A stretch of DNA of 34,568 nt from Phycisphaerales bacterium (GTDB lineage: Bacteria > Planctomycetota > Phycisphaerae > Phycisphaerales > SM1A02). The stretch lies in NCBI GenBank assembly GCA_029260575.1, contig JAJDDB010000010.1, positions 1-34,568 on the forward strand. The letters run 5' to 3'. Numbering within the stretch: position 1 is the stretch's first letter; the number at the start of each line of letters is the position of its first letter. Shown piece after piece: positions 18,458-34,549 of this stretch. The notes under the pieces were generated by a model that was not told the DNA's origin, did no database searches, and worked only from the letters and a program-made list of their open reading frames with translations. The position numbers were made by a program, and so were the translations under genes.

Positions 18458-20773
18458 CTACTCACACGGCCCCCACTGCGCGAGTAGCGACAGCAGATCA
18501 AAGACATCGACAGCGCAGTCGCCGGTGATGTCTGCCGGACACAGCGGCGGACACGGCTCGGCGCAGCCGCCCCACTGACCGAGCAGGGCCATCAGGTCAA
18601 GTTCATTGACTAGTCCGTCCGGCGCACGGCCAATTCCGCCGACGAAGTCGTGTGGACATTCACACCGCTGCGACTGGGACGTCGAAACGTGTATTGCCCA
18701 GTTGCGAATATTCTCAGAATAACCAAGCGGATAGATGAGATTCGTGCCAAGATCGCTCTCGTCAAATCTGAGAATATCATATAAACCAATGACGGCATTT
18801 GTACCGAGCGCACCTGCCTGTCTGGCGGGAAAAAGCTCACCTGTCGATACAGCGCCCGCAAAGAACACCTGCCCGGCTTCACCTACGTACGTAGGTTCGA
18901 CAGGATACACAACGTGCTCGTCGAACTCCGGCGTGCTCATCACATCCATTGCTAAAAGCAACTCGGCATCGATCGGGTCGCCATCGTTGTTCGGATCACG
19001 ATAGAGCAGCAGCGTTGCCGGCCTGGGAACACGGGCCTGCCAGTGCAGACTGATGCCGATGACAATCTCCTCGCCGGGGCGCACAACGAATCGCTGAAGC
19101 GAGAGTAAGTCATCGTTGCCAAAACTCGATACCCAATAAATTCCACCGCTGTTGCTCGCACCGACCTGGTAGCCCTGCGCGCATTCATCAGGCACGCCGT
19201 CGTTGTCGCAGTCCTCGCTGAGACTCTGCGCGATCGCACACGCATCGCCGATCCCATCAGCATCGCAATCGGCCTGACCTGCGTTGGCGATGTCAACACA
19301 ATTGTCGCAGACGTCGATCACGCCGTCGCCATCAATATCATTCTGTAGTTCGCACTCGTCGGGCGTGCCGTTGCCGTTGCAATCTCCGCTCGTCTCACCG
19401 GCAATGTCGTCACGATCGCAGACGCCGTTGCCGTTGCAATCGAATTCGGCCGCAGGTTCACACGCATCGGGCACACCGTTGGAGTTGCAATCTTCGCCGA
19501 TGAGCGCTTCGAACTCGTCATTGAATCCGTTGTCGTTGCAGTCTGCGCCGAGACCATCGACCATCATTGCGGTGTAGTTCTCGGATATAAATGAAAGGCC
19601 GTTGACATTCCACCCAACGCCAAATCGTTCCGTCGTACCCGCGAGCGACATGTTTGGATTCACCGGAGGCACACTCTGAGCACAAGCATTATCACACACA
19701 TACCAAAACTGCTCGTCCCAATTGTCGGCCCGCTGGGAAAACCCAATCAGGTGCGCCCCTCCGTCGAAATCGAGACTGGCGAGTATCGATTGCTCGCCAA
19801 CTATGAGCGACCATTGGCCGAGTTGTCCGCGCCTTTCGCTCAGTGTGGTTTGATCGATGGGCAATGCATGCTGCTGCATCCATTCTCCGGTTCCCGGATC
19901 TCGGGCGAAGACGATCAGCACAATCTGTGTAGAAAACGGATCAAGCTTGGTGATCGTCGCGAAGGTCACGACCCGGTCAGGTCCGATCGCGTTTGCTTGT
20001 TGAAATGCGCTGATGCGATCCTCTGCGGTGGGCCTCAAGAATTGCTCGAACGTCCACGTGCCAGACACCTGACGATAGACGTACGCTTTTCCCTGAGAAT
20101 CGTCTGAAAATGTACGTACCGGCGATGTGATAACGCATGCATCCCCGGATGCATCAATGGTGCGCCCAAAGTCCTCATCGACGCGACCGTTTGGTGGAGT
20201 AAGGGTCTCACGCATTTGCCACTGCCCTTCGAATAGTGAATGCACATACACTGCACCTGTCTCAAGGTCGGTGAACGCACCGATCAGTAGGTCGCCACCG
20301 GCAAATTCAAGTGACTGACCGAACGAGATATCGCTGGCTTCATTACGAAGGAATTGGTTCAGCGACCATGCGCCGGCATCTCTCTTGTAGATGAATACAC
20401 CTCGTTGCAGCACGTCGTCCTGAAGTGCCTTGCCATACACCGCCAGCCAATTCCCCTTCAGGGCAAGCGGACCCAAGAACTCTTCACCATCGATCCACCC
20501 CGGCGGGAGAATAAACTGCGTAAAGGTCCACTTGTCGCCGAGACGGTCATGGACCTGCACTGCGCCGCGGTTGTAATCCGGAGACATACGATTGATAAAA
20601 GTGAACGCCAGCAGTGTGTCCCCATCCAGTTCGAGATCAGGGAACTCGCCGCCCCCCATCCCCGGCGTCGGATTGATCAGCCGAACAACCTGATCAGACT
20701 CGCCGGCCGCAGCAGGTGTTGATGCAACGATGACGGCAAACAGAATTACCGTGATACTCTTCATGACCGACAT
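18458..20773 (-). CDS. Secreted FG-GAP-like beta-propeller protein with DCN repeats and dockerin-like tail (paralogue 1)
   Basis: A 771-aa secreted protein. After a signal peptide (1-23), residues 30-400 hold repeats of the type FGxxLxxxGxxLLIGA...GAVYVxxxxxGxW, typical of FG-GAP/integrin-like propellers. Residues 411-531 carry Ca-binding D-C-N-x-N-G-x-P-D-x-C-E repeats (DCNDNGFNDEF, DCNSNGVPDACE, DCNGNGTPDECE, DCDNDGVPDEC). A beta-sandwich-like region (540-690, DPNNDGDPIDAELL) follows. The tail has two dockerin-like loops, each ending WGGC or WGPC. ATG 20773 has GGGGA 6 nt upstream. It lies 49 bp after the stop of its paralogue, so the two may be co-transcribed. Role unknown; probably a cell-surface or secreted protein, with the tail a possible sorting or anchoring signal. 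Confidence 0.82.
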   Translation of the reverse strand: MSVMKSITVILFAVIVASTPAAAGESDQVVRLINPTPGMGGGEFPDLELDGDTLLAFTFINRMSPDYNRGAVQVHDRLGDKWTFTQFILPPGWIDGEEFLGPLALKGNWLAVYGKALQDDVLQRGVFIYKRDAGAWSLNQFLRNEASDISFGQSLEFAGGDLLIGAFTDLETGAVYVHSLFEGQWQMRETLTPPNGRVDEDFGRTIDASGDACVITSPVRTFSDDSQGKAYVYRQVSGTWTFEQFLRPTAEDRISAFQQANAIGPDRVVTFATITKLDPFSTQIVLIVFARDPGTGEWMQQHALPIDQTTLSERRGQLGQWSLIVGEQSILASLDFDGGAHLIGFSQRADNWDEQFWYVCDNACAQSVPPVNPNMSLAGTTERFGVGWNVNGLSFISENYTAMMVDGLGADCNDNGFNDEFEALIGEDCNSNGVPDACEPAAEFDCNGNGVCDRDDIAGETSGDCNGNGTPDECELQNDIDGDGVIDVCDNCVDIANAGQADCDADGIGDACAIAQSLSEDCDNDGVPDECAQGYQVGASNSGGIYWVSSFGNDDLLSLQRFVVRPGEEIVIGISLHWQARVPRPATLLLYRDPNNDGDPIDAELLLAMDVMSTPEFDEHVVYPVEPTYVGEAGQVFFAGAVSTGELFPARQAGALGTNAVIGLYDILRFDESDLGTNLIYPLGYSENIRNWAIHVSTSQSQRCECPHDFVGGIGRAPDGLVNELDLMALLGQWGGCAEPCPPLCPADITGDCAVDVFDLLSLLAQWGPCE
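18461..18574 (-). repeat. 114-bp identical C-terminal cassette, copy 1
   Basis: These 114 bp encode the last 38 residues of the protein (WGGCAEPCPPLCPADITGD onward) and are identical, including third codon positions, to 20826-20939 in the upstream paralogue. Identity ends sharply at the stop codon (TAG here, TGA there) and just before the WGGC codons on the other side. Confidence 0.95.
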
Positions 20774-20822
20774 GGCGAATCCCCGTACTGAAGTATCTGA
20801 AGTATTGATACAATATAATACG
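20774..20822 (-). promoter_or_regulatory. AT-rich spacer with tandem 9-bp repeat before paralogue 1
   Basis: The gap between the two propeller genes is much more AT-rich than its surroundings. It holds two abutting copies of CTGAAGTAT (20788-20796 and 20797-20805, plus-strand reading). Several -10-like hexamers lie next to it, such as TATTAT and TATATT on the minus strand. This could be an independent promoter with an operator for paralogue 1. No -35 is clear. Confidence 0.3.
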
Positions 20823-23132
20823 TCACTCACACGGCCCCCACTGCGCGAGTAGCGACAGCAGATCAAAGACATCGACAGCGCAGTCGCCGGTGATGTCTGC
20901 CGGACACAGCGGCGGACACGGCTCGGCGCAGCCGCCCCATTGCTCTAGCAACAACATGAGATCGTGTGCATCGACAACACCGTCGCCTGAGAAGCCGCGG
21001 GCGGACACAATGTCGGCGGGACATTCGCAGGCATTGCGCGGCGATGCGGAGGCACGGATCATCCACGGTCCGCCTTCCTGATAGTATGGTGAAGCGATTC
21101 CTAGCGATGACAAGTCTGTCGGATCGAAATCGCCAATTGTATCCGCAGCGATCCACCTTCCGGGAGGTTCGTCGCCGGAGCCGCCTTGTGGCGCGGGAAA
21201 GATGTGACCGGTGGACTCCACGGCCACAAAGAAATATTGGCCGGTATTGCCGACGAAAATATCGTCAACGGGATAGGCGACGTAGCCATCATCGAACGTT
21301 GCGGACATAATGTCCTGCTTCCACAGCAACTGACCGTCATTGGGATCGCCATCATTGTTCGGATCGTTGTACAGCAGCAGCATGGCCGGGCGAGGCGCGC
21401 CAACTGACCAAAATATCTCAACTCCGTTGACGACTTCACCACCGGGCTGTACTCGAAATTGCTGAATCGAGAGGCAATCGTAGTCCGAGTTGTTGCCGAT
21501 CCACTGAACCTGAAAGATGCCGTTATCGACTGCATAGTCGCCTTGGCAGAAATCGGGCACGCCGTCCTTGTTGCAATCTTCAACCAGGCCGTTCGCTATT
21601 GCGCACAGGTCGCCAACGCCGTCGTTGTCGCAATCGCGCTGTTGGGGGTTGTACAGATCGACACAGTTGTCGCATTCATCGAACGCGCCGTCGCCATCAT
21701 CATCGACCAGGAAATCCTCGCAAGCGAAGTCGATCACGCCGTCTTTGTTGCAATCAAACACATCACCGTTTGCGATTTCGAACGCATCACAAATGCCGTT
21801 TCCATCGCAGTCGCCGACGCCGGCGGTTTCACATTCATCGGGGATGTCGTTGCTGTTGCAATCCGGGTTGCCGACGGCAATCTCGAAAGCGTCGTCAAGC
21901 AGGTTACCGTTGCAATCGTGCTCCGGCGTTGTGGCGATCGGGCCAACGATCGCGATGTAGTCTCGACTTGAGCTGTGCGCCTGCGAGACGCCGGCAACGA
22001 TGTACTTGTCACTGACAGCAAAAGTCGTTTCAGGACGTGGCGCCAACTGTTGAGAACAGTCTTCTGTCAGGCACTGCATCGCGTAGCTTTCGCTCCAGCT
22101 CGTACCGTCGAAGCGAAATATGGAAAAAGCCGGATTCGCTCCATGGAATTCATTGCCAGTGACGATCAGGTTCTCTCCAACGGCCAACTTCGTCCGCGCG
22201 GCGACCTGCGCGTCTGACGTCAACCCTGCCTCGAATTGCCAGGACGATGTCGCTGTCTCAAGTCGATAGACGTACGTTGCGCCGTTCGGCTGCACGAGAC
22301 AATCATTGACGACGATGAGATCATCGTACATAGCAACGGCGCAACCGAACTCTGCATTCACAACCGAGTCCGGTGCCGTGATGATTTGATGTAATAGCCA
22401 TTGCCCTGCATCAAATTGATAAATGAAGATAGCCCCGTCTTCGCCCAATCCGAAGTTCGAACTCCCAACGACACACCACTGTCCTGCCGCGGCTAGGGCT
22501 GATCCGAATCGATCGTTGGCCTGTAACCCCATCGTTGGAAGACGACCCGCGTCGATCCACTGGCCGGCTTTCTGTTCGAGTATCGCGACGCCACCGCTGT
22601 CAACCGGTGCGCCAGGCTCGTCCCCTGTCCCGACCAGGATAGTGCCACTCGCTATCGCAACGCTGTTGGCGACAGTTGGGGCCGGCAAATCAATCGAAAC
22701 GAATTCCTTTTCGAGCGACCATTCTTCGCCGGTGCGTTGAAACACAAACAGGCCCATTTCATCATCATTGACAGAATTGCGGAATGCGCGAGCGACAAGC
22801 GTGTTGTTGTGCATCGCGAGGTGATACCCGAAGAAATCCTGCTGCTTCAATGCGGGCGAATGGATCGTATCTTCAAGTACCCACTGTTCGTTCACAAACC
22901 GAAACGTGTGAATGATCCCGCCATATTGGTACTCGGGGAATAAACTGCTGTGATCTGTACTGACGGCAATTCTGTCGCCATCAGCAACGATTCTCACCCA
23001 GTAGATGGCGTTGCTATGAAACGGAGTCGGATTCACCAATCGCTGCACGCCATTCTGCGCCATTGCGAGGCTCGGCAGTCCCAGCACGAGTAACAACAGA
23101 GTGGTCATCAAAGACAGACGTGGCGTGTTCAT
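20823..23132 (-). CDS. Secreted FG-GAP-like beta-propeller protein with DCN repeats and dockerin-like tail (paralogue 2)
   Basis: A 769-aa protein with the same domain order as the downstream gene. A signal peptide (MNTPRLSLMTTLLLLVLG..., cleavage after LAMA) is followed by propeller repeats (DFFGYHLAMHNNTLVARA, DRFGSALAAAGQWCVVGSS, AEFGCAVAMYDDLIVVND). D-C-N repeats come next (DCNGNLLDDAFE, DCNSNDIPDECE, DCDGNGICDAFE, DCNKDGVIDF), then a beta-sandwich region with DPNNDGDPNDGQLL, and a two-loop dockerin-like tail ending WGPCE. ATG 23132 begins the signal peptide and has GGGAG about 9 nt upstream. The leader GGGAGATTCGCCA resembles GGGGATTCGCC before paralogue 1. Outside the last 38 codons the two proteins differ widely, so the duplication is old. 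Function unknown, probably surface-exposed. Confidence 0.82.
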   Translation of the reverse strand: MNTPRLSLMTTLLLLVLGLPSLAMAQNGVQRLVNPTPFHSNAIYWVRIVADGDRIAVSTDHSSLFPEYQYGGIIHTFRFVNEQWVLEDTIHSPALKQQDFFGYHLAMHNNTLVARAFRNSVNDDEMGLFVFQRTGEEWSLEKEFVSIDLPAPTVANSVAIASGTILVGTGDEPGAPVDSGGVAILEQKAGQWIDAGRLPTMGLQANDRFGSALAAAGQWCVVGSSNFGLGEDGAIFIYQFDAGQWLLHQIITAPDSVVNAEFGCAVAMYDDLIVVNDCLVQPNGATYVYRLETATSSWQFEAGLTSDAQVAARTKLAVGENLIVTGNEFHGANPAFSIFRFDGTSWSESYAMQCLTEDCSQQLAPRPETTFAVSDKYIVAGVSQAHSSSRDYIAIVGPIATTPEHDCNGNLLDDAFEIAVGNPDCNSNDIPDECETAGVGDCDGNGICDAFEIANGDVFDCNKDGVIDFACEDFLVDDDGDGAFDECDNCVDLYNPQQRDCDNDGVGDLCAIANGLVEDCNKDGVPDFCQGDYAVDNGIFQVQWIGNNSDYDCLSIQQFRVQPGGEVVNGVEIFWSVGAPRPAMLLLYNDPNNDGDPNDGQLLWKQDIMSATFDDGYVAYPVDDIFVGNTGQYFFVAVESTGHIFPAPQGGSGDEPPGRWIAADTIGDFDPTDLSSLGIASPYYQEGGPWMIRASASPRNACECPADIVSARGFSGDGVVDAHDLMLLLEQWGGCAEPCPPLCPADITGDCAVDVFDLLSLLAQWGPCE
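20826..20939 (-). repeat. 114-bp identical C-terminal cassette, copy 2
   Basis: This is the partner of 18461-18574, identical over all 114 bp. The flanking codons differ at once (LLEQ before WGGC here, LLGQ in paralogue 1). Confidence 0.95.
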
Positions 23133-23255
23133 TGGCGAATCTCCCGGAAAGTGTCCACCCAACCAGTACGGCATGAATTACCCGATCCTGCGCCCGACGC
23201 AAAGAAACTTTCTTGCGCCGACTTGGACCCAGCCGAACCCCTGCATCAGCAGCGA

Positions 23256-25734: not shown

Positions 25735-26943
25735 TCATCTCGGTTCCAAAATATATTCGCGGCCGCCCCAGACAACCGGCCGGCGATTTTCCAGATCGCT
25801 CGCTGCCTCGAACATGACGCGCATCACCATGAATGCACCTAGAGGATAGAACCACACAGCAGAGCGCGGCGCGCCGCCCATCGGATAAATCCGCCGCAGC
25901 ACGGAAAACTGCATGATCAGCGACAGAAACGTCACCACCGAAACGGGAATGGCAAGAATCGGATGACCTGCTATGAGAAAAAGCACAGCAGTCACCAGCG
26001 CCGCCGCCTGCACAATCTGTAGCGACACACCGATCAGCAGAATGCGCCAGGCATACTTGCGCAGTCGAGCTGGTTTGCGTTTGCAACCTTCGATGAATAT
26101 CCGCTTCCACCCCTGCAGAAATGACCGCATTGAGTCGTACATGGATACCATCAGCATGCCATCGGACAACGCAACGCCGCCGCGGCCGCCTTCGTTGTTG
26201 ATACGCCGGGCAAAAGCGATGTCCTCCAGCAAATCATGCTTGACCGAATGATGCCCGTCGATGCGTTCGTACCAGGTGCGGTCGAAGAGCATGAATTGTC
26301 CATTGGCAAATGCGCGTGCATTCTCGGCTCGATTGACGCGTTCCAGCGGAAACATCTTCATCAGATTCAACGCTGCAACCGGTTGAATGATCCGCTCAAA
26401 CCGTTGATCGTACGACAATGTGCTCAGCAGACTGAGTAGCGCCAAACCCCGCTTCCGCGCCAGCGCCACCGCAGCCCGACACAAGCGCGGGTCAAACATC
26501 GTGTCTGCATCAGTGAACAACAGCCAGTCGCCGGTCGCATGTTCAGCCCCGATGCGGGCTGCGTTGCACTTTCCAGCCCAATCGTCGGGGCATGAATCAT
26601 TTTCCACAATCCGAATCCGCGGGTCGTCCGCAGCTGCGGCACGGAGTTCTGCAAGCGTGTCGTCGGTACACCGATCCAATACGAAGATGAACTCAATATC
26701 AGGATAGTCCTGCGCGCGCAACGATTCTGCGCACCGACGAATTACCCGCTGTTCATTGTGCGCGGGAACTATGATGCTTAACTTCGGCAACGGCTCGGAA
26801 GATTCCTCGACTTCAAGTCCGCGCAGAATGGTCGGCCTATCTTCCATTGCGCGAGACATGCGCAGTGCAATAGCCAACCAGTACACGCCGCCGACTGTGG
26901 AACACAGCCCGAGAACTGTCGCAATGATGATAAGTGCCGTCAT
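25735..26943 (-). CDS. Family 2 glycosyltransferase with C-terminal membrane helices
   Basis: A 402-aa inverting GT2 enzyme. An N-terminal membrane helix (about 5-25) precedes the catalytic domain, which has SIIVPAHNEQ (56-65), the DxD motif DADT (145-148), an acceptor-site ED (240-241, KHDLLEDIAFARR) and a later QGWKRIF in place of the classical QxxRW. Three or four helices follow at the C-terminus (about 300-385). The layout resembles HpnB/CrtQ-like glycosyltransferases that act on lipid or hopanoid-type acceptors, but the acceptor cannot be inferred. ATG 26943 lacks a clear ribosome site. It is divergent from the NAD(P)HX epimerase gene and precedes surE. Confidence 0.82.
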   Translation of the reverse strand: MTALIIIATVLGLCSTVGGVYWLAIALRMSRAMEDRPTILRGLEVEESSEPLPKLSIIVPAHNEQRVIRRCAESLRAQDYPDIEFIFVLDRCTDDTLAELRAAAADDPRIRIVENDSCPDDWAGKCNAARIGAEHATGDWLLFTDADTMFDPRLCRAAVALARKRGLALLSLLSTLSYDQRFERIIQPVAALNLMKMFPLERVNRAENARAFANGQFMLFDRTWYERIDGHHSVKHDLLEDIAFARRINNEGGRGGVALSDGMLMVSMYDSMRSFLQGWKRIFIEGCKRKPARLRKYAWRILLIGVSLQIVQAAALVTAVLFLIAGHPILAIPVSVVTFLSLIMQFSVLRRIYPMGGAPRSAVWFYPLGAFMVMRVMFEAASDLENRRPVVWGGREYILEPR

Positions 26944-27124
26944 GAAGCGTTATGCGCTCTCCGGGCGCGAACAACGTGCGGTGCAAGAGTCCAATTCGAA
27001 TCGAACAACAGCCGTTCAAGGAACCGGCAAGTGTATGCTGAGTCCGTCTGCGGTGCGCTGCAGAGGATTTCGCTCATCATCTGGTCATGGATTTTCGTCT
27101 ATCCTGCACGAGAAGGCAGTTTCA

Positions 27125-27886
27125 ATGACGCACCAGGCCGGCACAGATGATCAATGTTCGTTACGCGTGGTGACTCGTACGCAGGCTCGGGCAATTGATT
27201 CGGAGGCAACAGATCTGTTTGGTATTCCATCAATTGTTCTGATGGAAAACGCATCGCGCGCGCTGGCAGCAGTCACATTGCGCATGCTCGAAACGAACAC
27301 GCAACCGAACCGATCGGTACACATCATCTGTGGTGCGGGGAACAACGGCGGCGATGGATACGCTGCTGGGCGTCACCTGCACAATGCCGGTTGCAACGTC
27401 ACGATTGTCCGGTTGTCCACGCCTCGGCCGGGCTCTGATGCTGCGACCAATGCAAACATCTGCCGAAGGATGGACCTGCCGATCGTAGATGTGTCTGCGC
27501 TGGGCCGAATTGTCTCGACCTCGTCGATCATCATTGATGCGATATTCGGCACCGGTCTGGATCGCGATGTGACCGGTGACGCAGCCCACGTCATTGCGGC
27601 TCTGAACGAATGCACGTGTCCGATCGTGGCTGCGGACGTCCCTTCGGGGCTGGACTGCGAGACCGGGCTGGTGCTCGGCGAAGCTGTGTGGGCTGCTACG
27701 ACGGTGACGTTCGCTGCGCTGAAGCCGGGCTTTTTTGTTGATGCCGCGCAGCCGTACCTCGGCAGAGTTGTTGTAGCCGGGATCGGAGCACCTGTGGAAT
27801 TACTCGAAGCCCATTCGAAGCCTGCTGACCCGGAAATGTGTGCGTTGATGCAAATTGCGCCTACGCACTTCGATTCATATTCGTAG
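27125..27886 (+). CDS. nnrE: NAD(P)H-hydrate epimerase (YjeF N-terminal domain)
   Basis: This enzyme interconverts the R and S forms of hydrated NAD(P)H so that a dehydratase can restore the coenzyme. The 253-aa protein has the YjeF_N landmarks: GIPSIVLMENASRA (33-46), CGAGNNGGDGYAAGRHL (69-85), DAIFGTGL (138-145) and DVPSGLDCETG (171-181). The fused C-terminal dehydratase domain of E. coli YjeF (about 500 aa) is absent, so the dehydratase must be encoded elsewhere. ATG 27125 is chosen because AGAAGG lies 8 nt upstream and the domain begins soon after; the frame is open further upstream, but that part overlaps the divergent glycosyltransferase gene and is not conserved-looking. Confidence 0.9.
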   Translation: MTHQAGTDDQCSLRVVTRTQARAIDSEATDLFGIPSIVLMENASRALAAVTLRMLETNTQPNRSVHIICGAGNNGGDGYAAGRHLHNAGCNVTIVRLSTPRPGSDAATNANICRRMDLPIVDVSALGRIVSTSSIIIDAIFGTGLDRDVTGDAAHVIAALNECTCPIVAADVPSGLDCETGLVLGEAVWAATTVTFAALKPGFFVDAAQPYLGRVVVAGIGAPVELLEAHSKPADPEMCALMQIAPTHFDSYS

Positions 27887-27914: not shown

Positions 27915-29174
27915 CTATTTCGGCTTGTTGTACGGGAAGAATCGTTTGAGCTTCAGAAACTGCTTCTCGTAGAGATGCCAACTCACCCAGGCTGCAAGCA
28001 AGCAGGCAATCGTTGAAACAATGTAGAACGCGAGTTGAATTGGGATTCGTGTCCCCAGAAAGACAGGCATTTCATTCTTGGCGAAAAATGGAACCACCTC
28101 TCGAAGAACTGCTCGAATCGGGAGGTGAAACAAATACAGCGCGTATGAGAATTTTCCAAAAGTTGACATGAATCGACCGTTCATGAATCGACCGAACGGT
28201 TTCTCCGTGTTCGCACAGATCGACAGTACGAGAAGCCCGCCGAACGTAATCGCTAAAGCGGTGTATCCGAGAGATTGCATCGCGTAACCGCTCCAGCTCA
28301 ATTCACCGACGCGTTTCCATCCCATGGTGGAATCAAGGGCAAGACATGCAAGCACAACTGCAAGACCAGCCAGGAGAAATTTCCGGGCAATGGGCAGAAG
28401 TATTTTGAGATCGCCTGTCCGGCGTGCGAGAATCGCCAGCAGCCCACCCATTGCGAGCGCATCCATCCGACAGAAGGTGATCGTGTACATCGCCATCGGG
28501 TGCGCAAACCACCAATCCATGTCGAAAACTTCCATACTGATCAAAACGGCCCGCAGTAGCAATGCAAGCACAATTATGACACAGCACATCCGGAATATCG
28601 CTCTCGGATTGAGCAGAAATACCAGTGCCGGCCATATCAAATAAAACTGCTCTTCAATCGCAAGCGACCACGACACATCAAGAATTCCGTGTGCAAATTT
28701 ATGATGATATGCGATCGAGAAATTTGAGAGATACAGCCAATACCACTGCTGCCGGTCCATCACTTCGGACCATTCTGCGAGTTGGTTTTCGAGCGCACCT
28801 ATGTTTGTGTACCGCGCAATGAGCGGCAACACGATGAGCGAAAATATTACAACTGCGTAATACAGCGGAAAAATGCGTACAGTTCGGCGCGCATAGAAAT
28901 TCAGGAAGTAGTGTCGTCTGCCTTTGGCATCAACAAGAATGCCCGTGATGAGAAAACCGGAGAGCACAAAAAACAAATCGACCCCGCACCATCCAAAGTC
29001 GGCGATTGACGATATCCATCTACCCACGCCGGAGACCGGCGTAAACACCGTCATATGATGGATCATGACGAGCAAAATGGCAGCGCCGCGGAGCCCGTCA
29101 AGACCGGGAATGTGGCCACGAAGTCGAGAAGCCCTGCCGGATTCGTGCATCATTTGTCCATCGGCATGCGCCAT
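27915..29174 (-). CDS. Acyltransferase 3 (OafA/YrhL-type) membrane protein
   Basis: A 419-aa integral membrane acyltransferase with about 10 helices. Family members add acetyl or other acyl groups to surface glycans. The landmarks are IPGLDGLRGAAILLVMIHH (22-40) with the conserved HH, GVDLFFVLSGFLIT (64-77), ARRTVRIFPLYY (95-106) and a DVSWSLAIEEQFYLIWP segment. There is no fused SGNH domain. ATG 29174 is chosen because AAGGG lies 6 nt upstream. The gene looks more AT-rich than its neighbours, as surface-modification genes often do. It converges with nnrE, with 28 bp between the stops. The substrate is unknown; the O-antigen system in this window is one candidate. Confidence 0.87.
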   Translation of the reverse strand: MAHADGQMMHESGRASRLRGHIPGLDGLRGAAILLVMIHHMTVFTPVSGVGRWISSIADFGWCGVDLFFVLSGFLITGILVDAKGRRHYFLNFYARRTVRIFPLYYAVVIFSLIVLPLIARYTNIGALENQLAEWSEVMDRQQWYWLYLSNFSIAYHHKFAHGILDVSWSLAIEEQFYLIWPALVFLLNPRAIFRMCCVIIVLALLLRAVLISMEVFDMDWWFAHPMAMYTITFCRMDALAMGGLLAILARRTGDLKILLPIARKFLLAGLAVVLACLALDSTMGWKRVGELSWSGYAMQSLGYTALAITFGGLLVLSICANTEKPFGRFMNGRFMSTFGKFSYALYLFHLPIRAVLREVVPFFAKNEMPVFLGTRIPIQLAFYIVSTIACLLAAWVSWHLYEKQFLKLKRFFPYNKPK

Positions 29175-29534
29175 GTTGCGCCCTTCTCGAAAGCAATTCG
29201 CCGGTTTCAATACAGTTCCAGATGCGTTACCCCAGGCGTCATGATGCTGAGCCGCTGCAATCCGTACACGTAAAGTTAGTCTGCTCACGCGTGTTGCACA
29301 AAAGCAAGCCTGCTGCATCACGTTGTTTGCCTGATGGCTAGAGCATTGCCATCATCAACTTTCTAACGACTCCGCACTCGCCTTCCGATCTACCCCTACA
29401 GTGCATTTGCCAGAGTGTGAATCACAAATTTGGAAGCACGGCATCCTCACTGCCGATGACCAGAGCAAAGCCGCATGTGCCATAGAGCCACTGCGGCTAC
29501 ACTGCTCGATTCCCAGGCCGGCTCACTCTCCCGC
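29175..29534. other. Divergent intergenic region between acyltransferase and Lol-like permease
   Basis: About 360 bp without a supported gene. TACACT at 29498-29503 (GGCTACACTGC) could be the -10 of the permease, about 32 bp before its ATG, but no -35 is evident. Short reading frames on both strands show no domain or ribosome site. No RNA gene or repeat was recognised. Confidence 0.4.
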
Positions 29535-31439
29535 ATGTACCACTCCCTGCTGACCAACCGATACCTCACCACGCGAGTGATTCCACTCGTGGCTGTCGGC
29601 GCGGTCGGCCTGTGCGTCGCGCTGGTCATCATTGTCGTCTCAGTTATGACCGGCTTTCTGGATATGGTTCGCAACTCCGGCAGGACGCTGATCGGCGATG
29701 TCGTAGTCAGCTATCCGGTCAGCGGTATTCCGCACTACGACGAATTGATCCAGCGCATCAATGCCTTGCCTGCTGCTTCTGCTGCGACACCAGTCGTCGA
29801 CAGCTTCGGTCTGCTGCGCATGCCGTATCCGGAGGGTGACAACAAGGAATCCGAGACTGTGCAGGTCTGGGGCATTGAGCCGGAGAGCTTCGCTGCGGTC
29901 ACGGGCTACGGTGAATCTTTGTACTGGCGCAACCTGAATCAACGTCAGACAGAATTGCTCAAGGCTGATCTGGTCGATCGCCATCCTGAGACAATTCTTG
30001 AAATGCTCGATACAGATCAGCGCCGCGATGTAATGGATGATGTGTTCGGCGATGGCAAAACCGACTGGCGAGCTGATGTTGACGAGGCGGAATTCACGCG
30101 GCGTGTTGCTGATACGCTGCCCAAGCAATGGCTGCAGATCATCGGGCAGTATTTCTGGGAGCCGGATGAGCTGCGCCACATTTTCACCGAAGCGCAGTGG
30201 CAGGAATTCCTGGCTCTGGATCAACGGCTGGTCAACCCCAATCAACTTCTTGAAGACGGTTTGACGCTGAAACCGAGTACTGCTGATAACACGCGGCCCG
30301 GAATCACCCTGGGTATACATGTTTCCGTCGGCAATATCCGCACAGAAGAGGGTGAATATCGTGTTGCCAACAACTGGCACTGGTGGATGCCGCGGTATTC
30401 GGTTTCGTTGACACTGCTGCCGATTCTGTCCGGCGGCTTTGTCGAACCGGAAACGCGCGAACTGCAGGTGGTCAACGAGTTCAAATCGGGTGTGTTTGTT
30501 ATTGATGAGAGCCGGGTGATGATCCCGCTACACGTGGCGCAGCAGATGTTGCACCTCGATGAAGCGCAGCGCGTCGACCCGGATGATCCCGATACGGTGC
30601 TCGGCGTCGATCCTGCACGGGCTACGCTGATTCTCGTGCGGGCCGCAGAGGGAACTACACCCGAGCAGCTGCGCGATGCGGTCAAGATTGTCTACAACGA
30701 TTTCGCTGAGCAATACTGGGACGATGATCGCATGCTCGTCAAACCACCAGTGCTCCAGAAGAATGGGTTCCCCGGAACAGCAGTGCAGACATGGCTCGAA
30801 CAGCAGGCGCGGTTCATCGGCCCGATCGAAAAAGAACGTGAATTGATGCGCACGCTGTTCTCAATCGTGTATCTCGTCTGCGCAGGACTGGTGCTGGCGA
30901 TCTTCTGGGCAATTGTCTACGAAAAGACCCGCGACATCGGCATCCTGCGTTCGATCGGTGCATCACGACTGGGTATCAGTTGGATTTTCCTGCGCTACGG
31001 ACTCGTTGTCGGCGTGTTCGGCGCGCTGCTGGGGCTGTTGCTCGGCTGGCTGATTGTGCGCAATATCAATTCGATTCATGATGCGCTCGGCAAGCCACCA
31101 ATGTGGTTGGCGATGTCAATATATGTACTCGCATTCGCCGCGCTCATTGCGACCATCGTGCGCAGTCTCTCCGGCAGGTTGATGCCATTGGTGCTCGGTT
31201 CGCTGTGCATAATCACGTTACTCGGGATTGCTTCGCTGATGGTGTTCGTGCGCTTCATCGGCGGGATTCAGGTCTGGACACCGGAGGTGTACTACTTCAC
31301 GGAGATTCCGAATCAGGTGGATTACAACACAGCGGTCACCACGATGATCGGCGCGGTGATCTTTTCATTGATCGGCGCGTTCCTTCCCGCAGCAAAGGCT
31401 GCTGATGTCGATCCTGTGAAGGCGCTGCGGTATGAGTAA
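29535..31439 (+). CDS. LolC/E-MacB-type ABC transporter permease with enlarged periplasmic domain and extra membrane hairpin
   Basis: A 634-aa permease of the type that, with LolD, extracts lipoproteins from the inner membrane. The start MYHSLLTNRYLTTR and TM1 (14-39, ending VVSVMTGFLD) match LolC/E. The periplasmic domain (about 40-435) is far larger than usual; residues 135-255 form a charged helical insert. TM2 is 440-462, followed by the family's EKTRDIGILRSIGAS (463-477), and TM3 is 484-508. Two extra hydrophobic segments (about 523-544 and 550-574) come before the standard WTPEVYYFTEIPNQVD. The final TM (598-620) ends PVKALRYE as in LolC/E. LolC/E are about 400 aa with four TMs, so this is an expanded form. 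The ATPase gene overlaps its end by 8 bp. A single permease suggests a homodimer. Confidence 0.85.
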   Translation: MYHSLLTNRYLTTRVIPLVAVGAVGLCVALVIIVVSVMTGFLDMVRNSGRTLIGDVVVSYPVSGIPHYDELIQRINALPAASAATPVVDSFGLLRMPYPEGDNKESETVQVWGIEPESFAAVTGYGESLYWRNLNQRQTELLKADLVDRHPETILEMLDTDQRRDVMDDVFGDGKTDWRADVDEAEFTRRVADTLPKQWLQIIGQYFWEPDELRHIFTEAQWQEFLALDQRLVNPNQLLEDGLTLKPSTADNTRPGITLGIHVSVGNIRTEEGEYRVANNWHWWMPRYSVSLTLLPILSGGFVEPETRELQVVNEFKSGVFVIDESRVMIPLHVAQQMLHLDEAQRVDPDDPDTVLGVDPARATLILVRAAEGTTPEQLRDAVKIVYNDFAEQYWDDDRMLVKPPVLQKNGFPGTAVQTWLEQQARFIGPIEKERELMRTLFSIVYLVCAGLVLAIFWAIVYEKTRDIGILRSIGASRLGISWIFLRYGLVVGVFGALLGLLLGWLIVRNINSIHDALGKPPMWLAMSIYVLAFAALIATIVRSLSGRLMPLVLGSLCIITLLGIASLMVFVRFIGGIQVWTPEVYYFTEIPNQVDYNTAVTTMIGAVIFSLIGAFLPAAKAADVDPVKALRYE

Positions 31440-32337
31440 ACACCCGCCCACATCGACGCACCTTCTTGAAGCAGTCAACCTCCACAAGACCTATTGCATG
31501 GGTCGCGTGGATGTGCCTGTCTTGAAGGGCGCTTCGCTTGAAGTGCAGCGCGGTGAGTGGGTGGCAATTCTCGGTGCATCGGGGTCGGGCAAGAGTACGC
31601 TGCTTCACCTGCTTGGTGATCTGGATCATCCGGACCGCGATGAGGGTACAGTGAAATTTGCCGGCAAAGATATCACAGCAATGTCGCAGGGCGCGCGCAA
31701 CGTGTACCGCAATCGCAGTATCGGGTTCGTGTTTCAGTTTTATCACCTGCTGCCGGAGTTAAACGTTCTGGAAAACACGATGATCAGCGCGTTGGTAAAA
31801 CATTCGCTGAAACCGCGATTGTATTGGATAGGCATTTCGGTCTTCGCTGCGATGCTTGGTGTACTCGCAATGCTGGCGCTAGTCTGGAGAACCGGCGAGT
31901 GGTCGCCGATGTGGAAACCTGCAGTGATTGCAGGTGTTGGCGCATTAGCCGGACTGTTGGTTCTGCTGCCGCTTTGGATGGAAGCGCGTTCGATGGCGGC
32001 GCGTATCAGCCCCAGCCGGGGCGCACTGCGAAATCGCGCAGAGCAGCTGCTCTGTTCCTTCGGTCTCGGACATCGATTGCGCCATCGGCCGCGCGAACTT
32101 TCCGGCGGTGAGCGCCAACGCGTTGCCATCGCTCGGGCGCTTATGAACGAACCGGAAGTCCTGCTCGCAGATGAACCGACGGGCAATCTCGATGAAGAGA
32201 CAGGTAGCGAGATTCTTGATCTAATAGCAGAGCAGCATCGCAGCGGCTTGACGATCGTAATGGTGACGCACGACATCAACGTCGCACAACGAGCTGATCG
32301 AATCGTGAAGTTACATGCGGGGCGGGTGGAGAAGTAA
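31432..32337 (+). CDS. LolD/MacB-type ABC ATPase with an inserted membrane hairpin
   Basis: A 301-aa ABC ATPase partner of the overlapping permease. Walker A is GASGSGKST (48-56), the Q-loop is at Q102 in FVFQFYHLLPELNVLEN, the signature is LSGGERQRVAIARAL (223-237), Walker B is VLLADE (243-248), and the H-loop is VTHD near the end. LolD is about 230 aa. The extra 70-75 residues lie between the Q-loop and the signature (about 122-196) and contain two strongly hydrophobic segments (130-152 and 163-183). These are predicted to form a membrane hairpin in the helical subdomain, where a soluble ATPase normally has only helices. Flanking sequence on both sides matches LolD and the frame is intact, so this does not look like an error. 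The start ATG overlaps the permease stop by 8 nt. It probably powers lipoprotein or other envelope export. Confidence 0.9.
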   Translation: MSKHPPTSTHLLEAVNLHKTYCMGRVDVPVLKGASLEVQRGEWVAILGASGSGKSTLLHLLGDLDHPDRDEGTVKFAGKDITAMSQGARNVYRNRSIGFVFQFYHLLPELNVLENTMISALVKHSLKPRLYWIGISVFAAMLGVLAMLALVWRTGEWSPMWKPAVIAGVGALAGLLVLLPLWMEARSMAARISPSRGALRNRAEQLLCSFGLGHRLRHRPRELSGGERQRVAIARALMNEPEVLLADEPTGNLDEETGSEILDLIAEQHRSGLTIVMVTHDINVAQRADRIVKLHAGRVEK

Positions 32338-32341
32338 GAAT

Positions 32342-33697
32342 TCAGTTATTCACCCGATACCACTGCACGAAGCGCTTGATGACTGCTGACGCACTTGCGC
32401 CATACACCTGCGATAACGCCTCCGGCCAGTCGGTGCCAATCTTCACCGAACGCACCCAGCGTGCGAACATGCCCGACTTGTCGCGGCTCAGCATTTCCAC
32501 AAGCAGATAGCCAACCGCCGGGCCGACGCGCTCGGGGCCGGGCCACTGTTCATCGGCATAGTCGAGCGCGAGCAGTTTCTTCACACCGCCGGGCTGTTCG
32601 CGGATGAATTTCAATCCGAACGGCCGACGGGACTGCTCGACCGTTGACAAATCAAATGCCTTGTGCGTTGCATACAGTGCGAGCCCATCGGCAGCCCACG
32701 CAGGCAGACGGCGCGGCGAAATATGACGATGCAGGAACGCGTATGTTGTGAGTGTGCACAACAGCTCGCCGAAGACGAAATCATCGGAATCACGATGCAC
32801 ATTGAGAAACACGCGCGGTCCGTCCGGATGCATCAGACCGTGTACCGACCGTGGCGACAAGTGGTTAAACGTGTCTGCTTCCGTCACACGAAATCGGTCG
32901 TAATCGTCATGAATGATGACGACAGCCTTACCCCAGAAGATGTTGCCGATGGAATCGACCCCGACCGCTTTGGCAAGATTATCGTAACAACGATCGAGCA
33001 GACGAGCCCAGCGCAGTGACTCTGCATGCGACATCTGGCTGTAGAACAGAAAACGATTTGTTTCAATGAGCCTTGCATCCACACCGGCGCGATCAAGAAT
33101 TGACGCAGCACGACCGCGCATGACATCAGCGTGCAATTCCTGTTGTTCAGCAGTCAGCATCGGCCAGGGATCTGCGGAATATTCTGCTGCTTCGGGATGT
33201 TGTGTATTCAGCTTCTGTTCTTCGGCGCGTTGTTGTTGCTCGCGCTGCTTTGCAAGTTCAGCAAGTGCTGCTGCGCGTGCTTGTTCAATACGCGGCTTGG
33301 CATTTTCATCGAGCCGCAGCGCACGGCTGAAGGCGCGCTCTGCATTTCGTGCATCATCTTCAACAAGCAGCAGTCTGCCGAGGTTGATCCACTGCGCAGC
33401 GTTGTCCTGATCCATCACAGCGCGATACAGCCGCCAAAGATCGTCGACTGCAAGATCAGACCATGCGCGACGTCCGAATGTTCCATCGAATCCGGTCTGA
33501 TCCCACGAGTTCAAATCGCCTGTGACTGACGCGCCATCGGCGAGCGAAAATCGGACGCGAAGCGGAGAATCAAGTTCATCGGCCGCTATTGGCGTTGCTG
33601 CAAACACAGTGACGACAATGCATACGACAGCCACAACCGCCAATCTGGCAGATTGACGGAACTCAATGTCTGAATGGGCGGACGAGTTTGTGTTCAC
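32342..33697 (-). CDS. Secreted protein with TPR-like region and inactivated peptidase-MA-like domain
   Basis: A 451-aa predicted secreted protein. The start is uncertain: GTG 33697 gives a signal peptide (QSARLAVVAVVCIVVTVFA, cleavage near ATPIAA), but no ribosome site is visible. A small N-terminal domain (FSLADGASVTGDLNSW) is followed by one TPR-like unit (NLGRLLLVEDDARNAERAFS). Next is a Gln/Glu-rich coiled coil (about 135-165). A C-terminal domain (about 235-450) resembles the gluzincin 'peptidase MA-like' or DUF1570 group: VVIIHDDYDRF, then LPAWAADGLALY. The zinc-binding HExxH position reads CTLTT (C314-T318), and the downstream Glu is Asp, so no zinc ligand remains. It is probably a non-catalytic binding protein. 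It converges with the Lol-like ATPase gene. Confidence 0.72.
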   Translation of the reverse strand: MNTNSSAHSDIEFRQSARLAVVAVVCIVVTVFAATPIAADELDSPLRVRFSLADGASVTGDLNSWDQTGFDGTFGRRAWSDLAVDDLWRLYRAVMDQDNAAQWINLGRLLLVEDDARNAERAFSRALRLDENAKPRIEQARAAALAELAKQREQQQRAEEQKLNTQHPEAAEYSADPWPMLTAEQQELHADVMRGRAASILDRAGVDARLIETNRFLFYSQMSHAESLRWARLLDRCYDNLAKAVGVDSIGNIFWGKAVVIIHDDYDRFRVTEADTFNHLSPRSVHGLMHPDGPRVFLNVHRDSDDFVFGELLCTLTTYAFLHRHISPRRLPAWAADGLALYATHKAFDLSTVEQSRRPFGLKFIREQPGGVKKLLALDYADEQWPGPERVGPAVGYLLVEMLSRDKSGMFARWVRSVKIGTDWPEALSQVYGASASAVIKRFVQWYRVNN

Positions 33698-33839
33698 TGG
33701 TGTCAAAACAATGATCTGTTCCGTCTGGGACGTCGAATAAATGGTATGGACCTTGCGATTGCTCTGGGTAGGACGCGACTTGGACCGATGGAGGTCAGGT
33801 TGGAGACAACCTAGAGTTGCATGTCCGAACCGACAACTC

Positions 33840-33865
33840 GATCCAGCGGGGGCTGGATCCGGAGG
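33840..33865 (+). promoter_or_regulatory. Hairpin directly before a consensus ribosome-binding site
   Basis: GATCCAGC (33840-33847) pairs perfectly with GCTGGATC (33852-33859) around a GGGG loop. One base later is GGAGG (33861-33865), 6 nt before the ATG at 33872. GGAGG is the strongest Shine-Dalgarno in the window. The hairpin could modulate access to it or stabilise the mRNA 5' end. Confidence 0.45.
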
Positions 33866-33871
33866 TTTGAA

Positions 33872-34549
33872 ATGTTTGAACGCCTGACAGATCGAGCGCG
33901 GAAAGTTATGGCCCTGGCCAACCAGGAAGCCCAGCGGGTCAAGCACGGGTGCATCGACACTGAGCATATCCTCCTCGGTTTGGTCAAGGAGGGCTCCGGC
34001 GTTGGAGCCAACGTCCTGAAGAACCTCGGCGTGGATCTACGCAGGGTCGTCCTCGCAGTTGAGAAGCTCACCCGGAGCGGTCCCTACAACAACCTCGCCA
34101 CCCTGGGCAAACTGTCTCAGACCGTCGATGCGAAGAAGGTCATCGAATTCGCGATTCGAGAATCCCGGCGTCTTGGGCACAACTATGTCGGAACCGAGCA
34201 CCTTCTTCTGGGCTTGTTGGGGGTGGAGGGCTCGACGGCAGGTCGAATGCTCGTGGACTCGGGCATCGTCTTGGGAGATGCTCGCGAAGAACTGCTGATG
34301 TTGTTGGGAGCGGCGGCGGGTACATCTGAATTCCCCCAGTCCGGAGACAGAATACACAAGACCACATGCTTCGCTTTTCACGGTAACAGCCCTCTGCCCC
34401 CGACGATCGCGGCCATCCTCGGCCAGCTCCACGATAAACCTCACACACCTGGGAGACTGCTCCTGGCTTTGCTGGAGGCCAATCCCGAGTTGAAGAAGCG
34501 CCTTGAGCCGGTCATGGACGAGATCCGCAAGGCCTGTGGGGAGCCCTGA
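33872..34549 (+). CDS. Stand-alone Clp N-terminal domain protein
   Basis: A 225-aa protein made of ClpC-type N-terminal repeats, which bind substrates and adaptors for ClpC/ClpP, with no AAA+ ATPase domain. Repeat 1 covers about 1-70 (MFERLTDRARKVMALANQEA, HGCIDTEHILLGLV). Repeat 2 covers about 80-146 (KKVIEFAIRESRRLGHNYVG, TEHLLLGLLG). After a linker, a third degenerate repeat lies at about 176-211 (HTPGRLLLALLEANPELKKR). The stop at 34549 is followed by the window edge, so a downstream partner cannot be seen. ATG 33872 is fixed by GGAGG 6 nt upstream. It may be a Clp adaptor, competitor or regulator. Codon use (many CTC, AAG and GAG codons) looks different from neighbouring genes. Confidence 0.85.
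   Translation: MFERLTDRARKVMALANQEAQRVKHGCIDTEHILLGLVKEGSGVGANVLKNLGVDLRRVVLAVEKLTRSGPYNNLATLGKLSQTVDAKKVIEFAIRESRRLGHNYVGTEHLLLGLLGVEGSTAGRMLVDSGIVLGDAREELLMLLGAAAGTSEFPQSGDRIHKTTCFAFHGNSPLPPTIAAILGQLHDKPHTPGRLLLALLEANPELKKRLEPVMDEIRKACGEP

Follow-up and report, generated by a model that had tools for sequence, protein, structure and literature searches.

A LolD/MacB-type ABC ATPase with a predicted transmembrane hairpin in its helical subdomain, from a Phycisphaerales bacterium

An overlapping permease-ATPase gene pair

The stretch of DNA analyzed here (the window, 34,568 nucleotides of a Phycisphaerales contig) carries on its forward strand a gene pair that encodes an ABC permease and an ABC ATPase. 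The ATPase gene (31432-32337, +) is a single open reading frame with no internal stops, and its 301-residue product is a LolD/MacB-type ATPase that matches PF00005 (E 2.4e-33; 116.1 bits against a cut-off of 25). Translation places every ABC motif in frame and in order, namely the Walker A motif GASGSGKST (residues 48-56; 31573-31599), the Q-loop glutamine Q102 (31735-31737), which is invariant in all six aligned sequences, the signature LSGGE (residues 223-227; 32098-32112) and the Walker B motif VLLADE (residues 243-248; 32158-32175), just as an earlier sequence-only reading of this DNA had placed them. The protein is presumably catalytically active. Among the 33 ABC domains of its genome, it alone has a PF00005 match as long as 660 bases; the longest of the others covers 513.

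The 3' end of the permease gene (29475-31439, +) overlaps the start of the ATPase gene by 8 bases. It encodes a 654-residue permease of the LolC/E/F type with Pfam matches to FtsX and MacB_PCD and a lolCE match below the cut-off. Permeases of the LolC/E, MacB and FtsX types have four transmembrane helices, with a large external domain separating TM1 from TM2, as summarized in a passage of PMC7468199. The window permease departs from this four-helix plan: the long TM1-TM2 stretch is present, but six spans are predicted, the usual four and two more in a segment from TM3 to TM4 (residues ~539-600; 31089-31274, +) that is recognized from span prediction and from the TM3-TM4 spacing. A structure model of the permease (mean pLDDT 63.9) lends the extra helices weak backing, drawing them as helical at block values of 43-52. 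As this is the only LolC/E/F-type permease detected in its genome at E 1e-5, it suggests a homodimer, as in LolDF, for which the relevant section of PMC11784454 describes a homodimeric permease.

Several known systems resemble this pair in part. LolD, of LolCDE and LolDF, provides both the top NCBIfam model and the best sequence matches among PDB chains, and the order of permease then ATPase, with a single permease, is that of the lolF-lolD operon (gene order from the excerpted text of PMC11784454). However, LolD has a loop of 6 residues where the window ATPase has a hairpin of 75, and the permeases of LolCDE and LolDF lack the counterpart of the 63-66 residue TM3-TM4 segment. The best NCBIfam match, LolD_lipo_ex (TIGR02211), is reached at 243.7 bits, under the curated 307.75. 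Insert-less relatives (L010, L011 and L019) also fall under this cut-off, with 235.3-255.8 bits, which shows that the shortfall is not due to the insert. The permease likewise scores 147 bits against lolCE (TIGR02212), under the curated 362.45. Furthermore, no LolA (PF03548) was detected at E 0.01 in the 95.3% complete genome, where a diverged LolA is possible, and just 6 of 181 genomes of the family have one. The ATPase is therefore called LolD-like rather than LolD. MacB shares the ATPase fold (Z 29.4-32.9) and has the MacB_PCD and FtsX domains seen in the window permease, yet it joins ATPase and permease in one chain, in place of two overlapping genes, and its solved ATPase domains align without a hairpin. 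FtsE, of FtsEX, has the same fold but is short at the insert site, and the window ATPase scores 181.1 bits against its model (TIGR02673), under the curated 264.85.

The surroundings of the pair are mixed. The gene convergent with the ATPase (32342-33967, -) has a weak TPR match below the Pfam cut-off. By eye, a similar gene adjoins the ATPase in one related locus with the insert (L006) and in one without (L011), and the locus thus looks orthologous between them. Upstream of the permease lies a YjeF_N gene (26756-27886, +), and the same kind of gene, again by eye, lies ahead of the permease in L011; in the window the two are separated by an acyltransferase gene (27915-29321, -). Farther away are two adjacent genes for large FG-GAP repeat proteins (18458-23174, -) and a gene for a 242-residue protein (33821-34549, +) whose sole Pfam match, Clp_N, makes it look like a stand-alone Clp N-domain protein.

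A hydrophobic hairpin on an ordinary ATPase fold

The unusual part of the ATPase is a 75-residue insert in the helical subdomain (residues 122-196; 31795-32019, +), which stands in place of LolD residues 115-120. In phmmer alignments to PDB chains of LolD, the window ATPase is aligned at residues 11-122 and 198-299, leaving only those six residues of E. coli LolD between the two blocks; by this alignment the insert is residues 123-197. Two transmembrane helices are predicted within it by hydropathy, insertion energy and AlphaFold2. The first covers residues 130-152 (31819-31887, +; AlphaFold2 helix 128-154) and the second residues 164-183 (31921-31980, +; AlphaFold2 helix 161-192). Kyte-Doolittle averages over 19 residues peak at 2.58 (residues 133-151) and 2.29 (165-183), and the predicted insertion energies are -2.7 and -0.59 kcal/mol for the two spans, computed with Hessa-type parameters in a script that also returned the six spans of the window permease. 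The same script found no stretch below 1 in any of 33 insert-less control ATPase domains, the best being 1.72, the controls being the best-matching relatives and not a random choice. The predicted membrane hairpin first noticed from the sequence is thus confirmed as an observation, including its roughly 75 extra residues and two hydrophobic spans.

Comparison with relatives extends these features beyond one protein. All 26 insert-bearing sequences contain two or more hydrophobic stretches (mean ≥1.3 over 19 residues) between Q-loop and signature, and seven insert-less orthologues have none or one each. The insertion energies are weak in some relatives: the first span scores 0.9-1.33 in part of a large clade, and in L158 both spans are weak (1.72 and 1.54). 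Charge is distributed unevenly around the spans. In 25 insert-bearing sequences, lysine and arginine make up 97 of 750 flanking residues versus 12 of 343 in the loop between the spans (p=3e-7, uncorrected for kinship among the 25 related rows), an arrangement that fits ends inside and a loop outside. Searches of Pfam and the PDB with the insert alone returned no convincing relative.

The rest of the protein looks conventional. AlphaFold2 models the window ATPase with a mean pLDDT of 91.2 and a pTM of 0.81 as a standard ATPase fold, in which helices 112-125, 128-154, 161-192 and 196-209 run through the insert region. The two hairpin helices (128-154 and 161-192) have block pLDDT values of 69-86, below those of the core, in a model built on an alignment of 40 homologues that are all too short to contain the insert. 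When the whole model is used as the query, the best 50 PDB matches cover the ATPase fold, and solved structures of LolD, MacB, YbbA and FtsE superpose on 213-223 of its 301 residues with Z scores of 28.8-33.9. The hairpin is therefore surplus on an ordinary fold. No counterpart of it occurs in the aligned LolD, MacB and FtsE structures, consistent with the sequence-only view that LolD and MacB ATPase domains have no such insert, and a search of viral structures with the ATPase model gave no informative match.

A distant parallel is the Arm of ABC-F proteins, which is also a helical hairpin in the helical subdomain of an ABC ATPase domain. Unlike the window insert, the Arm is soluble, belongs to a protein with two ATPase domains, touches the ribosome and has no transmembrane spans.

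The site of the insert can be placed relative to the permease by analogy. In pneumococcal FtsE, one of three regions that shape the cavity for the coupling helix of FtsX is R4 (residues 101-115), and R4 and its companion regions reportedly vary with the nucleotide state, ADP or ATP (part of PMC7468199). The same excerpt gives the FtsE Q-loop glutamine as Q88. If Q88 is equated with Q102, the insert would start near FtsE residue 109, within the flexible region R4. In LolCDE, the coupling helices sit between the two subdomains of LolD, as stated in the consulted section of PMC11671585. It is reasonable, by analogy to FtsE and LolCDE, that the hairpin lies beside the coupling helix of the permease. 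The sequence-only reading had proposed a hairpin that anchors the ATPase in the membrane next to this helix. This is partly supported: two transmembrane helices are predicted within a standard fold, at a position that corresponds to the coupling-helix region of FtsE, and membrane insertion and contact with the permease may follow from these features.

Distribution and history of the insert

The insert is neither unique to the window nor universal among its relatives. A scan of the window's family found it at 25 loci in 24 of 181 genomes and in 10 of 45 genera; among high-quality genomes of the family, 15 of 104 have it. One genome (G523) has two insert-bearing copies, at L152 and L154, which are near-identical permease-ATPase pairs on different contigs and may represent a recent duplication or a strain mixture. 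The other 157 genomes had no match at the scan threshold, some of which may lack the gene or be incomplete; such patchiness suggests that the insert is dispensable. Across 59 sequences the distance from Q-loop to signature is bimodal, 54-61 residues without the insert and 124-141 with it (L179 and L187 count as insert-less under a stricter Q-loop and signature pattern). The search among planctomycete LolD homologues called for by the sequence-only reading thus finds the insert conserved in position, and its in-frame occurrence at the same place in related genomes answers the question of an assembly error that the same reading had raised.

Beyond the family the insert is scarce. Among the matches listed in a scan of 397 genomes of the class (five candidates scored per genome, matches listed down to about E 1e-45), contiguous ones came from 7 genomes, all in the window's family, and the next best were broken in two at the insert. 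Among those listed in a scan of 392 genomes of the phylum (six candidates scored per genome), one further contiguous case appeared, G703, a member of another class (E 1e-55). Both scans drew even samples, and a hairpin of differing sequence in a less LolD-like ATPase could escape them. The G703 protein (locus L161) is a LolD-like ATPase with two strong spans at the position of the window insert. Its insert was compared with 9 others and in 8 cases did not rise above shuffled sequences, and no permease-like open reading frame is seen, by eye, in the 6.5 kb read around it. Relatives of the G703 insert-bearing ATPase were found neither in 294 genomes of the phylum (E 1e-55) nor in the sole other genome of its order (E 1e-50). 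In a wider set of 80 related loci that includes other phyla, 42 of the 43 ATPases measured have 53-61 residues from Q-loop to signature, and the remaining one is L088, for which the Q-loop pattern failed.

The extra permease segment follows a different distribution. TM3 and TM4 are 63-66 residues apart in all 43 family permeases measured (23 next to an ATPase with the insert, 19 next to one without it, and that of L167, whose ATPase was not caught by the pattern), versus 11 residues in all 7 permeases from other families of the order. For individual loci, the segment is present in L010, L011 and L014 (63 residues) and absent from L013 and L019 (11). L012 has two permeases, one measured at 7 residues, and alignment shows both to be short. 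By eye, the best LolC/E-like permease of G703 is without the segment; being encoded on a different contig, it might not belong with the hairpin-bearing ATPase. An obligate pairing of ATPase and permease hairpins is rejected, as the spacing in the family is the same with and without the ATPase insert. The permease hairpin, being present regardless, would have arisen first or independently. A derivation of the ATPase insert from the permease hairpin finds no support in six genomes, where between 52 and 297 of 500 shuffles reach the observed similarity.

Sequence divergence within the insert is rapid. Over 300 pairs, mean identity is 40% for inserts versus 70% for cores, and no residue of the insert is invariant in six aligned sequences. 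Its hydrophobic character is kept despite this drift, which fits a loosely constrained membrane anchor, as judged from sequence. In a tree of ATPase core plus permease (43 rows), the insert was gained or lost at least four times, and its restriction to one clade is rejected by an AU test devised after the tree was seen (p 4e-63). The tree of the ATPase core alone (59 rows, one very long branch) is less decisive, with six changes, two of them forced by starred branches. Among ten representative inserts, those of the window and G009, of the window and G412, of G012 and G451 and all six pairs from the large clade outscore every one of 500 shuffles, with G009-G412 as the within-group exception (168 of 500 as high). 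Most between-group pairs are not above shuffles. A few are higher than most, namely G451-G703 (2 of 500 as high), G012-G006 (11) and G009-G012 (20), and in view of these pairs a common origin of the inserts is possible. The pattern is compatible with one gain followed by losses, with several gains and with recombination or exchange.

A probable membrane-anchored transporter motor

Taken together, it seems that this ATPase is an integral membrane protein in which a transmembrane hairpin replaces a loop of the helical subdomain by the coupling-helix pocket and acts as a tolerant tether, a reading to which a probability of roughly 0.7 is assigned. As an anchor, the hairpin is well supported by prediction and comparison. 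It would replace the short loop between the helix that follows the Q-loop and the helix that precedes the signature, enter the inner membrane from the cytoplasm and return, with its short loop outside and its positive flanks inside. The ATPase would in this way become membrane-integral next to the pocket that receives the coupling helix of the permease. Most likely the hairpin would hold motor and permease together and in position. With a presumed permease homodimer, the number of transmembrane helices in the transporter would rise from 8 to 16, (6+2) x 2.

The hairpin might instead serve specifically in coupling or regulation, by packing on particular permease helices and altering how ATP binding moves the transporter. 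Its site corresponds to FtsE R4, reported in part of PMC7468199 to vary with the ADP or ATP state, the family permeases also have extra membrane helices, and the distant planctomycete G703 uses the same site with an insert that is mostly not above shuffles (8 of 9 comparisons). This is nonetheless unlikely, as the sequence of the insert diverges far more quickly than that of the core, with no invariant residue in six aligned sequences. The insert has also come or gone at least four times in an operon that itself persisted, and the TM3-TM4 spacing of the family permeases is equal whether or not the adjoining ATPase has the hairpin. Rapid divergence and a history of recurrent gain or loss speak for a tolerant tether over a finely tuned coupling part, and an effect of the hairpin on coupling is speculative.

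It is quite improbable that the two helices lie outside the membrane, as a soluble hydrophobic cap or as a cytoplasmic site for lipid or partner binding. The marginal insertion energies of some relatives would be compatible with such a location, and a single-chain structure prediction is blind to the membrane. However, both window spans exceed a 19-residue hydropathy of 2, have negative insertion energies and are flanked by charges that fit an inside-out-inside course; buried soluble helices, the outcome that the sequence-only reading had set against itself, are disfavored by hydrophobicity, charge layout and comparison with the insert-less homologues. An assembly error, frameshift or chimera that fused a membrane gene into an ATPase gene is refuted by the relatives, 25 loci in 24 genomes with an open, in-frame 124-141 residues from Q-loop to signature, including the single-contig genome G009.

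A bolder reading is tentative and rather doubtful: a new class of ABC transporter whose ATPase contributes transmembrane helices of its own, acquired repeatedly beside the coupling-helix pocket. Motor and gate would then share the bilayer, and besides the coupling helix a membrane-embedded lever might transmit ATP-driven movement of the helical subdomain. The sequence-only reading knew of no described ABC ATPase with this layout; likewise, in the passages returned by searches of the open-licence PMC literature, no description of transmembrane spans within an ABC ATPase subunit was found.

In two-gene ABC transporters the ATPase is regarded as a soluble subunit that binds from the cytoplasmic side. 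In this transporter, the motor seems to be fixed in the membrane at the site of force transfer. Since one family provides natural pairs with and without the hairpin, the contribution of docking and tethering to coupling may be tested in close homologues.
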